55,501 bases of DNA from Patescibacteria group bacterium (lineage in GTDB: Bacteria > Patescibacteriota > Saccharimonadia > Saccharimonadales > Saccharimonadaceae): assembly GCA_004322265.1 (NCBI GenBank), contig SCSZ01000003.1, forward strand, positions 1 to 55,501, in the 5' to 3' direction. Under the pieces are notes generated by a model. The model was not told where the DNA came from, searched no databases, and saw only the letters and a program-made list of their open reading frames with translations. Shown here one piece after another: positions 43,461 to 50,617 of this stretch. A program made the position numbers and the translations under genes. Positions within the stretch are counted from its first letter, which is position 1. Every line of letters begins with the position of its first letter.

Positions 43461-43586
43461 TTAATTAATCAGCGTATTCAGAGTACAGCGAGAGAACTAG
43501 CTCTATGACCTGTCAGCAACCAGTTACGGCTATACCGTCGACATGGTGCTACTTCTAGCCCATATGGGAAAGATAAGATTATATAA
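43461..43586 (+). ncRNA. SAM riboswitch (SAM-I clan) upstream of metK
   Basis: P1 strands TTAATTAATC (43461-43470) and GATTATATAA (43577-43586) enclose a domain with the conserved SAM-I/SAM-IV core: CAGAG...GCGAGAGAACTAGCTC (P2 with internal loop), TATGA (kink-turn side), CAGCAACC, GGTGCTAcTTC and GATAAGA. P3 (ACGG...CCGT) and P4 (TAGCCC/GGG) are readable. Just after it ACTCCTT (43586-43592) is complementary to AAGGAGT (43625-43631), the metK ribosome site, so ligand binding would favour sequestration of that site. Sub-class not decided. Confidence 0.88.
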
Positions 43587-43638: not shown

Positions 43639-44607
43639 ATGTCAATTTTTAGAACCGCCGAAAGTGTTTCACCAAAACACCCCGATAAAATATGCGATCA
43701 GATATCTGATGCTATTTTAGATGCACATCTTGCCCAGGATCCCGATGCCCGAGTTGCTATTGATGTCGCCGGTGGCCACGGAACAGTTTTTGTAACCGGA
43801 GAGGTTACTTCGCTTGCACAAAATATTGACGTGAGTGCTATCGTGAAGCGTTTAGCAGGTGATGTGGAGGTCATTGAACATATTGCTGCCCAGAGCACCG
43901 AGATTGCCGCAGGTGTTGATATTGGTGGAGCTGGTGACCAAGGTATTATGGTCGGCTATGCCACAAGCGAAACACCAGAAATGTTACCACTGGAAGTTGT
44001 TTTAGCTCGGCAGCTTAATCAGCATATCTACACAAAGTGGCCCTATGATGGTAAAACTCAAGTTACACTCCAGGATGGTAACATCACCTCTGTTGTCGCA
44101 AGTTTTCAGCACGCCCCTAAGAGTGAGTTAAGTCTGCTCGTGAGTACATGGTTGAATACGCAAAAATTGGCCAAAATTGGCGAGCTAGATTTACACATTA
44201 ACCCGGCCGGTGATTGGAACGTAGGCGGATTTGATGCTGATGCAGGCCTGACGGGTCGAAAATTGATTGTCGATAATTACGGTCCTCGGGTACCAATTGG
44301 CGGCGGTGCCTTTAGTGGTAAAGATCCCAGTAAGGTTGATCGTTCGGCAGCGTATATGGCACGTCGAATCGCAATTGACTATCTAAAGAAGCGCGACGCC
44401 AAAGAAGTGTTCGTTCATTTGGCCTATGCGATTGGCTACGATCAGGCTCTTGAGGCAACCGTCAGTATCGATGGTGCGCAGGAACAGGTGGCAGGCTACG
44501 ATCTGTCGCCAAATGGCATTATCACGTTCCTTGACCTGAAGCGACCTATCTATGAACAAACAGCTCGCTATGGTCATTTTGGTCATTCTGGACTTAGTTG
44601 GGAGTGA
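43639..44607 (+). CDS. metK: S-adenosylmethionine synthetase (short form)
   Basis: 322 residues, against about 380-400 for typical bacterial MetK. It makes AdoMet from methionine and ATP. Preserved blocks: ESVSPKHPDKICDQISDAILD (H14, D16, K17), GAGDQGIMVGYAT, DGKTQVTL, DADAGLTGRKLIVDNYGP and GGGAFSGKDPSKVDRSAAYMAR, so the active site is complete. Losses are spread over surface loops between these blocks, not one deletion. The methylases in this window (rsmD, two SpoU genes) need its product. Controlled by the SAM riboswitch directly upstream. Confidence 0.96.
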   Translation: MSIFRTAESVSPKHPDKICDQISDAILDAHLAQDPDARVAIDVAGGHGTVFVTGEVTSLAQNIDVSAIVKRLAGDVEVIEHIAAQSTEIAAGVDIGGAGDQGIMVGYATSETPEMLPLEVVLARQLNQHIYTKWPYDGKTQVTLQDGNITSVVASFQHAPKSELSLLVSTWLNTQKLAKIGELDLHINPAGDWNVGGFDADAGLTGRKLIVDNYGPRVPIGGGAFSGKDPSKVDRSAAYMARRIAIDYLKKRDAKEVFVHLAYAIGYDQALEATVSIDGAQEQVAGYDLSPNGIITFLDLKRPIYEQTARYGHFGHSGLSWE

Positions 44608-46130: not shown

Positions 46131-46751
46131 ATGATAGAACAAGAGAAAAAATTAGGCGTTCGAGATCTTAACAAGCTCTATCCGCCGACTGAGGCAGGAC
46201 TTGATTTTGAGATGAGCCCAGCGTTGAATGAAAGTATTGCCAGATTCTTTGGTAGGTCAGCTGCAATCGGATCATCTTTGGACAGACCTGACCGCATCGC
46301 ATCAACTATTAAGTTACTTTCGAACTTAACACCCGGTCCTCGCTACGATGTCGTCCAAGATGGTAAAATTCAACGATACAGTCAATCGCTAGTGAGATCC
46401 GAGAATCACCATTTTGGATTGCTCTCTCGTGTTGACGTCTCTAAAAGAGGCCGTATACCGACGAGTCTTAACATGGACGTTAACCTTTTGAATTTCTATG
46501 ACAGAGATCGTCTCGTTCATCAACCATTTTTTGTGGGTGATTGGCATACTTCTATTCAACTTTCCGTTCCGATCGACGCAACGGACCTTACTTTTTTTCG
46601 AAAAGAAAGAATAAATATAGTTGAGCAATTCAATGCTCTGAAAAAAAATCTCGAAGGTGGCCCTGTTATAAAAGATGTGAAAACAGCACCAAGCGAATTT
46701 TATGTAACTGACCCTACGGTAACATTACCATTCCCTCCTGATATTGAATAA
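46131..46751 (+). CDS. Hypothetical protein
   Basis: 206 residues, no membrane segment or recognised motif. Mixed alpha/beta with a beta-rich middle (GPRYDVVQDGKIQRYSQSL, FGLLSRVDVSKRGR). Upstream, TTGACA (46094-46099) and TATACT (46115-46120) with a 15-nt spacer suggest a start about 3 nt before the ATG. Followed by 91 nt to the his leader peptide. Confidence 0.65.
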   Translation: MIEQEKKLGVRDLNKLYPPTEAGLDFEMSPALNESIARFFGRSAAIGSSLDRPDRIASTIKLLSNLTPGPRYDVVQDGKIQRYSQSLVRSENHHFGLLSRVDVSKRGRIPTSLNMDVNLLNFYDRDRLVHQPFFVGDWHTSIQLSVPIDATDLTFFRKERINIVEQFNALKKNLEGGPVIKDVKTAPSEFYVTDPTVTLPFPPDIE

Positions 46752-46830
46752 ATAAATACATGCTAAAAGTAGCTAGTGCCCCCAGACAGACACTAGCTGA
46801 AGAGTAGTAGACAAATCAAACCACATATGC

Positions 46831-46836
46831 TATAAG
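46831..46836 (+). promoter_or_regulatory. -10 box of the his operon leader
   Basis: TATAAG; predicted transcription start at or near 46843, which is the A of the leader-peptide ATG. Confidence 0.55.
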
Positions 46837-46842
46837 TAAGCT

Positions 46843-46896
46843 ATGGTATACAACCAATTCAACCATGTACATATACTGCCGGAGCGAATCGGTTAG
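46843..46896 (+). CDS. Putative his leader peptide (17 codons, two His)
   Basis: MVYNQFNHVHILPERIG followed by TAG. Histidines are codons 8 and 10 (46864 and 46870). The -10 box TATAAG (46831-46836) ends 6 nt upstream, so the peptide would be translated from a leaderless start. Codons 11-15 overlap the antiterminator strand described for the attenuator. Two of 17 codons being His is not decisive; position relative to the hairpins is the main argument. Confidence 0.55.
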   Translation: MVYNQFNHVHILPERIG

Positions 46897-46951
46897 TTTT
46901 CTTTTGTAATCTTTCATAAAAAATAACGCCGAACATCGCTTCGGCGTTTTT
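46877..46951 (+). promoter_or_regulatory. Transcription attenuator of the hisG operon: antiterminator/terminator pair
   Basis: Terminator: AACGCCGAA (46925-46933) / TTCGGCGTT (46940-46948) then TTT, a perfect 9-bp stem. Antiterminator: TGCCGGAGCGA (46877-46887) pairs with TCGCTTCGGCG (46936-46946), 11 bp including two G-U pairs, and consumes the 3' arm of the terminator. A third hairpin ACTGCCG (46875-46881) / CGGTTAGT (46890-46897) can protect the antiterminator strand. A ribosome at the His codons leaves that strand free; one at the stop codon covers it. Confidence 0.72.
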
Positions 46952-46984
46952 CGTTACTAAAACTATTTTTTATGGAGAATTGTT

Positions 46985-47599
46985 ATGAGAGATTTAGCAA
47001 GAAGTGCAGAAAATATATTAATTCCTAAAGGGGATGATAATCAAGCGAGCGTGGATGCGTTCCAACAACTAACCGGTATCGAAGTACCCGATTTTTCAAA
47101 ACGAGAGTTAATGGCAAAATCTGGTGGGAGAGTATTTTGGTTGATGAAGGGTAAGGATATTCCAGGGCTCATAGCAGCAGGCAAGGGCGATATTGGTATG
47201 GCAGGTACAGATTCACGTATCGAATATAACCTCGCTAAACCTGAAGATAAACGGGTTAGATATCAGAAGATTGGAGACGAAATGTGTCGGTTTTCCCTGT
47301 TAGGACTAGCAGGCGAGAGTGAGGCAGTTCTAGACAGACTTGAGAATAGCCGATCGCTCCAAACAGTTTCTGTGGTTACGAGTCGACAAAGACTACTAGA
47401 ATATTACACAGGCAACTTACCAATTATTCGAGAAAATGTAGACATTAGCGGCAGTGTCGAAGCAGCAATGCGTCTAGTTGGCGTACCACTGGCGGCAGAC
47501 ATTGTTGATAGTGGTGAAACTGCGCGTCAGAATGGTCTTGTCGAGATATTTGAGCTAGGCAAGATGTATCCAGAACTAATTACGAGGGTCGAATCATGA
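46985..47599 (+). CDS. hisG: ATP phosphoribosyltransferase, short form
   Basis: 204 residues, the short HisG form without regulatory domain, which in characterised organisms needs HisZ, a HisRS paralogue, for activity. It condenses ATP and PRPP, the first step of histidine synthesis. Visible motifs: ILIPKGD (start), GKGDIGMAGTDSRIEY and the PRPP loop SGSVEAAMRLVGVPLAADIVDSGETARQNGLVEI. GGAG ribosome site 8-11 nt before the ATG. Overlaps hisD by 4 nt (ATGA). Preceded by the attenuator. Confidence 0.93.
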   Translation: MRDLARSAENILIPKGDDNQASVDAFQQLTGIEVPDFSKRELMAKSGGRVFWLMKGKDIPGLIAAGKGDIGMAGTDSRIEYNLAKPEDKRVRYQKIGDEMCRFSLLGLAGESEAVLDRLENSRSLQTVSVVTSRQRLLEYYTGNLPIIRENVDISGSVEAAMRLVGVPLAADIVDSGETARQNGLVEIFELGKMYPELITRVES

Positions 47600-48888
47600 A
47601 GACCTATCGTAATCTAGCGCGCGACAAGTGGCCACAACTTACAAAACGACCCACATCTAATACGGAGAATTTGGTGCAGCTTGCAAAACAAGTATTTACC
47701 GACGTTGATCGTGAAGGCGATAGGGCCCTGCGTAAGTACACAAAGCAATTTGATAATGTCGAACTCGGATCAATTCGGATTAGTCAAAAAGAAATTGAAG
47801 ATCAAGCACAGAAATTAGACTCGAAAACTAAAACAGCGATAGATATCGCATATCGCAATATCTATGAGTTTCATGCCAAACAACTAACAAGTCTTGAAAG
47901 CCCAGTTGCGGTTCAATCAGGAGTTGTGTGTTGGCGTGAGATTCGACCAATCGATCGCGTTGGGTTATATGTACCAGGCGGAAGTGCACCGTTAGTATCG
48001 ACTGTATTGATGTTGGGAGTACCGGCAAAAATTGCAGGGTCTAGGCAAGTTATTTTGGCAACTCCACCGGATAAGAATGGAACAATATCTCCAGCTATTT
48101 GCTACGCGGCATTAAAAGTTGGAATAACGAATATAGTTCGAATTGGCGGTATGCAAGCGATAGCCGCTATGACATTGGGCACAGAATCAGTGCTCGCCGT
48201 AGATAAACTATTTGGACCGGGTAATCAGTATGTGATGGCAGCTAAGCAATATGCCGAAAGGTACGGTGTAGCAAGCGATATGCCTGCAGGTCCATCAGAG
48301 GTATTGGTTGTTGCGGATCAGTCTGCTTACCCTGAATTCGTTGCTGCCGACCTTCTCAGTCAGGCCGAACACGGTCCAGATAGCCAAGTAGTTTTATTGA
48401 CGACAAATCAAACCACTGCGACAGATATTCAGAAGGAGATAGAATGTCAACTAGCCACTCTGCCACGAAAAGATATAGCGATTAAGGCTCTGGTAAATTC
48501 TTTTTGTATTATCTTTGACGATATATCGACCGCAATTGATTTTGCTAATAGCTATGCGCCAGAGCACATCATCCTAAGCATACGTCGCGCTCGGTCAACA
48601 TCTAAACGCATTAATAATGCTGGATCGGTATTTCTGGGGAATTATTCTCCCGAAAGCGCTGGCGATTATGCATCAGGGACTAATCACACGCTGCCAACGA
48701 ATGGGTGGGCACGTAGCTTTAGTGGACTATCCGTCGAAAGTTTTGTCAGGAGGATGACGTTTCAGAAACTTACGAAACCGGGTTTGAAGAAGCTGGGTAC
48801 TGCAATAAAAACTCTTGCAGAAACAGAAGGCTTGGATGCGCACAAACGAGCTATAACTATTAGATTTCAAAAAGATAAGGAGAAGTAG
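47596..48888 (+). CDS. hisD: Histidinol dehydrogenase
   Basis: 430 residues, full length. NAD-linked zinc enzyme for the last two oxidations, L-histidinol to L-histidine. The conserved regions are RPIDRVGLYVPGGSAPLVST, FGPGNQYVMAAKQYA, DMPAGPSEVLV, LLSQAEHGPDSQ (zinc ligands Q and H), NSYAPEHIIL (catalytic E-H) and ASGTNHTLPTNG. Translationally coupled with hisG. Nothing in the sequence suggests decay, so the enzyme is expected to be active. Confidence 0.96.
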   Translation: MKTYRNLARDKWPQLTKRPTSNTENLVQLAKQVFTDVDREGDRALRKYTKQFDNVELGSIRISQKEIEDQAQKLDSKTKTAIDIAYRNIYEFHAKQLTSLESPVAVQSGVVCWREIRPIDRVGLYVPGGSAPLVSTVLMLGVPAKIAGSRQVILATPPDKNGTISPAICYAALKVGITNIVRIGGMQAIAAMTLGTESVLAVDKLFGPGNQYVMAAKQYAERYGVASDMPAGPSEVLVVADQSAYPEFVAADLLSQAEHGPDSQVVLLTTNQTTATDIQKEIECQLATLPRKDIAIKALVNSFCIIFDDISTAIDFANSYAPEHIILSIRRARSTSKRINNAGSVFLGNYSPESAGDYASGTNHTLPTNGWARSFSGLSVESFVRRMTFQKLTKPGLKKLGTAIKTLAETEGLDAHKRAITIRFQKDKEK

Positions 48889-48889
48889 A

Positions 48890-49270
48890 ATGGTTTACCG
48901 AGAATTAGAGCCAACAATGACTGTCGATTTTAGCAAACTGACAAGTACTGAGCAAGGTGAAGCGTTAGTCCCAGCGATTGTCGTCGACAGAGCGGGACTT
49001 GCTATGGGCGAAATCGCGTGCATTCGAATGGTGGGATTTATGAACCAGCCAGCCCTTGATGAGACGCAAAACTCTGGTTTAGTTACATTCTTTAGTAGAA
49101 CCACGGGAGAGTTGTGGACAAAGGGTAAGTCTAGTGGCAATGTGCTGCAGGTTGATAAGATCTACGTCGATTGCGACGCGGACTCATTATTAATCACTGT
49201 TGATGCAGTTGGTCCTACCTGCCACACAGGCGCCGAGTCCTGCTTTGAAGAATTAAATGATACAATTTAA
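48890..49270 (+). CDS. hisI: Phosphoribosyl-AMP cyclohydrolase
   Basis: 126 residues, single-domain HisI without the HisE pyrophosphohydrolase domain of E. coli HisIE. It opens the purine ring of PR-AMP (third step). Motifs: MNQPALDET, GLVTFFSRTTGELWTKGK, SSGN, YVDCDADSLL (Mg site) and GPTCHTGAESCF (zinc cysteines). AAGGAG lies 7 nt before the ATG. No hisE is visible in the window, so the step between HisG and HisI would need a gene elsewhere. Confidence 0.94.
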   Translation: MVYRELEPTMTVDFSKLTSTEQGEALVPAIVVDRAGLAMGEIACIRMVGFMNQPALDETQNSGLVTFFSRTTGELWTKGKSSGNVLQVDKIYVDCDADSLLITVDAVGPTCHTGAESCFEELNDTI

Positions 49271-49285
49271 GAAAAGGAAAAACAT

Positions 49286-50617
49286 ATGAGTCTATCATCA
49301 CAACCCTATAAAGGAACCCGCGACTATTACCCCGAGCAGAAACGGATTCAAAACTATATTTTTGCGACCTGGCGTCGGGTCTCAGAACGTTATGGCTACG
49401 AAGAATACGGTGCACCAACGCTTGAACCTCTCGAAGTTTATGCTGCAAAGAGTGGCGATGAACTAGCTAACGAACAAACCTATACGTTTACAGATCGCGG
49501 TGGCCGGATTGTGGCAATCCGACCGGAGATGACACCGACAATTAGCCGTATGGTCGCCGCCAAGCGCCAAGAACTAGCGTACCCAGCTAGATTGTACTCA
49601 GTCGCTAATTTTATGCGTTATGAGCGTCCTCAGCGTGGTCGTGAACGCGAGTTCTGGCAGCTTAACGTTGATGTGTTCGGGCTAGACGAGGTAACAGCAG
49701 ATGCCGAGATTATTTCTATGGCAGATGCACTCATGAAAGAATTTGGCGCAAAAGATAAGGATTTCGTCATTCGAATCAACAATCGCCAACTCGTGAACTT
49801 TATTATGGTTCAGTATCTGGGTCTTGATGAGACACAGGCGCATCTAATGGTGAAACTATTTGATCGTAAGGATAAGATCGCCGAGGCAGAATTTAACGAT
49901 CAAGCGACTGAGATTCTTGGTAGCAATGCCAAGGAAGGCCTGGCAAAACTACAATCGCTAATGAATGCCAAGAAAGTTAGCGACCTACCAACTGAAATTA
50001 AAACGAGTCTGGCCGCAGTCGAATTAAACGAGGTATTTGAATTACTCGATCTAGCGGATGTGAAAAGTGTTAAATTTGATCTGACACTGATGCGCGGGCT
50101 CGATTATTACACCGGGACAGTCTTTGAAGTCTTTGATACGGATTCAGACAACAACCGCTCTGTCCTAGGTGGTGGACGCTATGATGGTCTGGTTGGCATG
50201 TTTGGTGCTGAGCCGATCTCTGCAGTTGGTATGGCGCAGGGTGGAACGACAATCGAGAACTTCCTTGACGTCCACAATTTATTGCCGAATCTGGCTTCAA
50301 CAACTGATATTTACATTGTTGTTCTAGGTGGTGCCCAAAAAGCAGCTAACAAATTGGCTAAACACCTACGTAGCGAGGGTGTAAATGTCGAACTTGATAC
50401 AACTGATCGTAAACTTGATCGACAGATTAAAACAGCTGTCAAAAAGAACATCCCTTACATCCTATTTATTGGTGATGATGAAGTGCGTGATGAAATCTAC
50501 ACACTGAAAGATACAGCCAGTACCGAAGAGCAGAAGATCGGCTTTTCACGTATCGTTAGTCTGATTCGTGATCGTCGACGTACAGCGAGCGATAACGATA
50601 TACCTGATTTGGATTAG
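49286..50617 (+). CDS. hisS: Histidyl-tRNA synthetase
   Basis: 443 residues. Class II motifs: TRDYYPEQKR region, motif 2 around YERPQRGREREFWQLNVDVFG, HisRS signature MRGLDYYTGTVFEVF and motif 3 GGGRYDGLVGMFG. A full anticodon-binding domain (about 340-440) is present, so it is a real HisRS rather than a HisZ paralogue, which lacks that domain. Ribosome site AAAGGA precedes the ATG. It is the last gene of the hisG-hisD-hisI-hisS operon and would be co-regulated by the attenuator. tig follows with its own promoter. Confidence 0.96.
   Translation: MSLSSQPYKGTRDYYPEQKRIQNYIFATWRRVSERYGYEEYGAPTLEPLEVYAAKSGDELANEQTYTFTDRGGRIVAIRPEMTPTISRMVAAKRQELAYPARLYSVANFMRYERPQRGREREFWQLNVDVFGLDEVTADAEIISMADALMKEFGAKDKDFVIRINNRQLVNFIMVQYLGLDETQAHLMVKLFDRKDKIAEAEFNDQATEILGSNAKEGLAKLQSLMNAKKVSDLPTEIKTSLAAVELNEVFELLDLADVKSVKFDLTLMRGLDYYTGTVFEVFDTDSDNNRSVLGGGRYDGLVGMFGAEPISAVGMAQGGTTIENFLDVHNLLPNLASTTDIYIVVLGGAQKAANKLAKHLRSEGVNVELDTTDRKLDRQIKTAVKKNIPYILFIGDDEVRDEIYTLKDTASTEEQKIGFSRIVSLIRDRRRTASDNDIPDLD

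Follow-up and report, generated by a model that had tools for sequence, protein, structure and literature searches.

The window analysed here is a stretch of 55,501 nucleotides from a Saccharibacterial genome, read on its forward strand. A short leader element of about 110 nt precedes a cluster of hisG, hisD, hisI and hisS, and the promoter, leader and genes are listed below.

46808..46836, + strand, putative promoter: -35 TAGACA at 46808-46813, 17-nt spacer, extended -10 TGC-TATAAG at 46831-46836
46843..46896, + strand, leader ORF of 17 codons, putatively leaderless, MVYNQFNHVHILPERIG-stop: coding 46843-46893, stop codon TAG 46894-46896
46877..46887, + strand, region 1, 5' strand of the outer antiterminator helix, partner 46936-46946 (covariation and constrained folding)
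46889..46893, + strand, region 2, UCGGU, inner antiterminator strand, partner the terminator 5' arm at 46928-46932 (MFE, RNAalifold and pair counts)
46925..46951, + strand, intrinsic terminator: 9-bp stem AACGCCGAA/TTCGGCGTT, 6-nt loop and T run (terminator scan)
46936..46946, + strand, region 4, 3' strand of the outer antiterminator helix: terminator loop bases TCGC plus the 3' arm, covarying with region 1
46974..46977, + strand, Shine-Dalgarno GGAG of the first structural gene, 3' of the terminator (sequence)
46985..47599, + strand, hisG, short form, passenger (PF01634, E 5e-16; under the NCBIfam cut-off, over the Pfam cut-off)
47596..48888, + strand, hisD, passenger (TIGR00069, 506 bits)
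48890..49270, + strand, hisI (PRA-CH), passenger (PF01502)
49286..50617, + strand, hisS, histidyl-tRNA synthetase (TIGR00442, 363 bits)

The window leader carries two CAT histidine codons, codon 8 at 46864-46866 and codon 10 at 46870-46872. Six bases separate its -10 box from the ATG at 46843, and from the sequence, transcription is predicted to start at or adjoining the A of this ATG. The 17-codon ORF with its leaderless start and two His codons, the terminator with T run at 46925-46951 (arms at 46925-46933 and 46940-46948, T run at 46947-46951) and an exact 11-bp antiterminator pairing of 46877-46887 with 46936-46946 had been described in the first-pass annotation, and all three are found in the sequence; the terminator is also recovered by a terminator scan. 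Region 1 overlaps codons 12-15 of the leader ORF.

The MFE of the window leader is lower than that of its dinucleotide shuffles (z = -3.94, 0/200), and the stretch from the ATG to the T run gives a z of about -5 against shuffles. In the MFE structure, the helix 46889-46893:46928-46932 is nested within the 11-bp helix, resulting in one long antiterminator hairpin that captures both terminator arms. The 11-bp helix of the earlier description is therefore correct in itself and too short in extent, as evident from both the MFE structure and RNAalifold. An antiterminator made of the 11-bp helix alone was doubted, as its partners in the terminator would be the loop and 3' arm alone, the last parts to leave the polymerase; this difficulty is removed because the nested helix also takes the terminator 5' arm.

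Profile matches to Pfam and NCBIfam confirm the hisG-hisD-hisI-hisS order that had been proposed downstream of the leader, and the assignment of the attenuator to hisG gives way to hisS as the constant gene. Protein searches showed that few members of the group have HisG or HisD. Among the genus genomes searched besides the window's own, hisG has no match except a divergent HisG-like gene in G194, and a search of relatives' contigs with HisG as bait returned nothing; the leaders of relatives were located by the HisS route and with the leader DNA itself as query. A hisS gene lies downstream of 31 of the 32 family-level leaders, directly next to the leader in 16, and every one of the 32 has some his gene downstream (tblastn for 31; for G204, coordinates that place hisS ∼2.5 kb 3' of the leader). 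In L092 the leader is followed by hisG-hisD, without hisS in the stretch read. Of the 72 loci collected in all, the stretch read includes a his gene in 57.

The neighbourhood between leader and hisS is variable. G036, the HisS of which is 93% identical to that of the window, has the leader and no match to hisG or hisD, and a gene for an M15 dipeptidase stands between its leader and hisS; the block 46824-46996 is 90% identical in this genome, while the flanks and the following gene are different. The order is leader, HAD-domain protein gene and hisS in G204, and leader, HisG-like protein gene and hisS in G194. Since the next genes differ in these three genomes while hisS follows, the leader is independent of hisG-hisD-hisI and goes with hisS. 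The Shine-Dalgarno GGAG is also kept in all three despite their differing first genes. A longer arrangement is found in G266, with a hisS/Z-like gene, hisG, hisH, hisA and hisF after the leader (names read from the proteins). Gene order thus supports hisS as primarily the constant regulated gene, with hisG-hisD-hisI as variable passengers that would share its control. The window genome, which is 99.7% complete, has no HisA or HisF match over the cut-off and no HisB; hisG, hisD and hisI therefore do not make up a full pathway.

Other passengers recur between leader and hisS, namely M15 (VanX-like) dipeptidases, GNAT acetyltransferases, AstE/AspA-type deacylases and divergent HisG-like proteins that are not accompanied by the remaining pathway genes. 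These were observed at L065, L071, L077, L085, L126, L128, L132, L133, L135, L136, L138, L145 and L152, a few being identified by Pfam and the others by resemblance. The peptidases, deacylase-like enzymes and orphan His enzymes among the passengers are candidates for a histidine-scavenging regulon.

A strong leader match is present in 4 of the 28 genomes of the window's genus (the window's own, G036, G204 and G194), and many relatives with hisS do not have the element. The genus leader peptides are MVYSQSNHLHILPERIG, MVYQYNQQHHVHILPEHVG, which has a 6-nt in-frame insertion, and MVYNQNYHEHILPERIG; the leader peptide of a further relative, MIYKTNHHSHLLPERIG, is conserved in frame. A covariance model of the four genus leaders (R1) matched 43 of 394 family genomes at E<=0.1, about 30 of them at E<=1.2e-4. 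The curated alignment (A5) holds 32 leaders, 4 from the window's genus and the rest from ∼20 other genera; two minus-strand covariance-model matches on L064 and L065 were left out of the final alignment, and the folding tests did not include L087, in which HLPH replaces HxH. A second covariance model (R2) matched 82 of 393 class genomes at E<=0.05, the weaker matches being partly due to chance. Strong R2 matches occur in families f1, f5, f6, f7, f9, f10, f12, f13, f15, f21, f24 and f28, and in f11 through G333. A phylum-wide covariance search gave no convincing match outside the order. The matches outside it (G715, G732 and G826) were treated as chance, as their number fits the size of the search, and covariance-model matches at E above ∼0.01 in the large genus g2 were discarded likewise, no His ORF or his gene being present in the inspected g2 and similar loci (L105-L113).

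Almost all curated leaders have an ORF of 14-19 codons with HxH or HHxH. The exceptions are L086, which starts with GTG, L088, with ATA at the start position, L092, with QTH, and L087 with its HLPH; the ATA of L088 may be an unusual start codon, or an error in the sequence. In 27 of 31 aligned leaders the -10 box lies 6 nt 5' of the start codon, and it agrees with TATAAT at 6/6 positions in 18 and at 5/6 in 11. The first His codon in the 31 leaders is CAT in 23, CAC in 7 and CAA in 1, and the second is CAT in 28 and CAC in 3. The middle residue of HxH is free, with nine different amino acids, and the reading frame is kept across insertions and synonymous third-position change. Leaders contain 1-5 His codons, usually 2-3 arranged as HxH or HHxH; a few (L092, L121, L123) have a single one, and one-His leaders such as MITFNSVKSHMQPESVLR (L137) also occur in some families. 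All leaders have the same 11-nt distance between the first His codon and region 1.

Covariation in A5 is in agreement with the nested hairpin. As many as 93.6% of the antiterminator cells pair, 11 of the 16 pairs show changes on both sides, and cells with both-side changes number 45 as compared to 12.1 in shuffles and at most 10 with slid partners. The pair counts favour the antiterminator to some degree, since A5 was fitted to it; sliding and shuffling correct for this bias only partly, and the bias is smaller in the slid control and in folds of individual sequences. RNAalifold predicts the same nested hairpin unprompted, 9 of its 14 pairs showing compensatory change, and the inner helix of region 2 has double changes in 4 of its 5 pairs. 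An example of compensation is GAGCGA:TCGCTTC in the window and GAACGA:TCGTTTC in L079. In G204, CGAATC is replaced by CATGTC, which breaks two pairs and exchanges GCGA:UCGC for AUGU:ACAU without loss of the hairpin. Pair counts show the terminator preserved in most of the 32 aligned leaders. Loss of the helices or His codons in relatives had been named in the first-pass annotation as the outcome that would speak against attenuation; the ORF, HxH, terminator and antiterminator are kept and covarying in 32 family genomes. A further hairpin had been proposed to hide the antiterminator strand. It can be drawn near 46878-46893, but it shows no compensatory change and pairs no better than shuffles among the aligned leaders, and this part of the earlier scheme is thus unsupported.

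The effect of ribosome position was examined by constrained folding. With the RNA blocked as far as 6-11 nt beyond the first conserved His codon, the terminator was disrupted and the antiterminator formed in 31 of 31 leaders; at larger footprints, disruption was recorded in 30/31 (12 nt) and 18/31 (14 nt). A block to 6-14 nt past the stop codon gave the terminator in 31 of 31. When the stretch separating the His codons from the terminator was shuffled, disruption fell to only 8%. A stall at the second His codon gave a mixed result, and the first His of HxH is therefore the likely control codon; the ribosome-position logic put forward earlier holds at both positions, and its provision for a stall at either His codon narrows to the first, the only one with a robust result. 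Free folding without a ribosome favours the antiterminator in most leaders, so that an untranslated leader would be expected to read through, a predicted behaviour unlike that of the classical trp and his attenuators.

The anatomy of the element, its conservation and covariation, its linkage to his genes and its folding with the ribosome at either of two positions support a common interpretation, that 46831-46951 is very probably a ribosome-mediated transcription attenuator that senses charged tRNA-His, with hisS as its primary target. The locus displays every sequence-level property examined for a leader-peptide attenuator, i.e. a coding ORF, an intrinsic terminator, a covarying antiterminator and genes for the same amino acid, and the response to a ribosome at the control codon or stop codon was seen in constrained folding. 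The element thus appears, from sequence and modelled folding, to work like a classical leader-peptide attenuator. From the same observations we infer the start site, the stalling and the direction of the response. RNA polymerase would start at or adjoining the leader ATG, and a 70S ribosome would load on the 5'-terminal AUG. When charged tRNA-His is scarce, this ribosome would stall at codon 8, the first His of HxH, leaving the RNA from 46877 on free; 46889-46893 could then capture the emerging terminator 5' arm, and 46877-46887 would zip onto the loop and 3' arm, so that the terminator is blocked and the operon transcribed. When tRNA-His is charged, the ribosome would reach the stop codon right behind the antiterminator strands and cover regions 1 and 2; the terminator would then fold and stop transcription. 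The genes between leader and hisS, here hisG-hisD-hisI, would share this control.

Four other explanations have to be weighed against tRNA-His-dependent attenuation. Arrest by the nascent peptide, in which the conserved HxH(I/L)(L/S)PE would stall the ribosome via exit-tunnel contacts, with or without a small ligand, rather than through uncharged tRNA-His, draws on the good conservation of the C-terminal codons in the nearest relatives and on the fact that ribosome-arresting leader peptides are a known kind. This conservation is explained by RNA pairing, since those codons are the antiterminator strand. Moreover, nine different amino acids at the middle of HxH, a C-terminus that varies freely (LLPR, LLPS, SPRRAG, HTQPAHAD) while the RNA pairing is kept, and His codons common even to variants of different sequence, in which they form the tail of a HisR-like protein (described below), make peptide arrest improbable. 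The constancy of hisS downstream would also suit autoregulation by HisRS, which would bind the leader RNA as a tRNA mimic and control termination, the ORF being incidental, and synthetase autoregulation is known in other bacteria. A protein-binding RNA would, however, not be expected to keep the reading frame, the start-codon spacing, CAT/CAC variation and the fixed 11-nt distance between His codon and antiterminator; no conserved tRNA-like fold was seen and the element matches no Rfam family above gathering, and this explanation is considered very improbable.

A His-specific T-box or another riboswitch that binds uncharged tRNA-His directly is given the same very low standing. It would be in line with the T-box control of hisS in many Firmicutes (PMC2965389; PMC9413887); against it, no Rfam T-box match was found in the window or in seven related loci, the predicted transcript 5' of the terminator is ∼80 nt, two thirds of which is ORF, and the His codons lie in a conserved frame. 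The least credible explanation is an ordinary terminator of the upstream gene together with a chance ORF, hisG being served by its own downstream promoter. The terminator does begin 174 nt past the point where the upstream ORF (46131-46751) ends, and a Shine-Dalgarno sequence precedes hisG itself; yet the 90% identity of the block shared with G036, though flanks and next gene differ, and a conserved -10, ORF and covarying antiterminator over dozens of genomes are incompatible with chance.

The attenuator read here at hisS resembles the proteobacterial his attenuator (RF00514) in having a leader peptide with His codons, a terminator/antiterminator pair, control by ribosome position and his genes downstream. 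Rfam His_leader RF00514 gave no match at the gathering threshold in the window, nor at E<=5 in the leader region, and the two differ in several respects. RF00514 has seven consecutive His codons and hisGDC as target, whereas the Saccharibacterial leaders have two to three His codons, as HxH or HHxH, and hisS as constant target; their ORF is putatively leaderless, one nested antiterminator uses both terminator arms, and no 1:2 protector hairpin is supported.

In Firmicutes, histidine leader peptides have been described 5' of hisS*/hisZ and of his operons (Naville and Gautheret 2010, PMC2965389; PMC9413887), and bacilli are known to have such peptides ahead of genes of the hisS family (PMC2965389). 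These share with the present element a His-codon peptide ahead of a hisS-family gene and a description by comparative genomics. They differ, in a comparison made by description and not by direct sequence comparison, in their runs of three to five His codons (cases of PMC9413887); the Saccharibacterial element has a putatively leaderless, compact ORF of 14-19 codons and belongs to a different lineage. Leader-peptide attenuators of trp, trpS and leuS in Actinobacteria (Seliverstov et al. 2005, PMC1262725) are likewise of the classical type outside Proteobacteria, include aminoacyl-tRNA synthetase genes, and differ in amino acids, targets and lineage. No earlier report of leader-peptide attenuation in Saccharibacteria was found in the open-licence literature; ribosome-mediated attenuation has been described for Proteobacteria, Actinobacteria and some Firmicutes. 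That the family is conserved and covaries throughout an order of episymbionts with reduced genomes indicates sensing of tRNA-His charge that controls hisS, and such control would fit cells that depend on imported histidine.

A second form of the leader was revealed by the class-level searches. In eight matches a ∼108-aa HisR/YerC-like protein carries the His motif as its C-terminal tail, e.g. ...NGCNGYQSALNSVHHEHLSPARAD*, and a protein search added two more, L242, with hisI-like and hisG-like genes following, and L244, with the tail MHHHSTNQSRRV, bringing the total to ten. The HisR-like proteins tested match PF01371 (two proteins, 59.5 and 52.1 bits; Pfam cut-off 27) and TIGR02531 (three proteins, 50.7-61.8 bits; NCBIfam cut-off 42.2) above the curated cut-offs. 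Folding reproduced the stall/stop logic in the ten HisR-tail loci. HisR/YerC-like (TrpR-family) genes with an HHxH or HHH tail and an antiterminator/terminator were noted at L138, L141, L142, L145, L146, L149, L150, L151, L242, L244 and L245; in L245 the complementarity is present, but the terminator wins in folding. Within the window's genus, a HisR-like gene whose product ends in a tail with His is present in G114, G198 and G207, and the window genome has the short leader, which is without a HisR domain.

HisR is a histidine-dependent repressor in Firmicutes (PMC9413887). The known HisR proteins have fewer than 100 aa (PMC9413887), whereas the Saccharibacterial ones add a short His tail, the codons, stop and terminator of which form the putative attenuator; in this form, one gene would encode a histidine repressor and also carry the codons by which an attenuator senses histidine. 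On balance we lean slightly towards a single nested-antiterminator design in Saccharibacteria, occurring both as leaderless peptides and as HisR/YerC tails, in which the short leaders may be remnants of tails and which may serve other amino acids as well.

Several other loci were noted along the way. L102 (G061:C130) has, at 398-524, a candidate lysine/threonine attenuator with a short ORF MTIKTKHIFSKPRV..., an antiterminator and a terminator; an aspartokinase-like gene, read by eye, follows directly, and folding shows the same stall/stop behaviour. Just 5' of hisS, L024 (G186) and L029 (G174) carry a ∼100-nt insert with an inverted repeat GTCCCGTTAGAAC...GTTCTAACGGGA, which overlaps the hisS ribosome-binding site and is possibly a different hisS leader acting on translation. 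In L244 (G198), the gene starting at 1915 after the HisR-tail attenuator resembles, as read by eye, an enzyme of the glutamate-cysteine ligase type and is perhaps linked to histidine-derived thiols. In the window itself, a SAM riboswitch (RF00162, 50.6 bits) lies at 43471-43579, 5' of a metK-like gene at 43639-44607.
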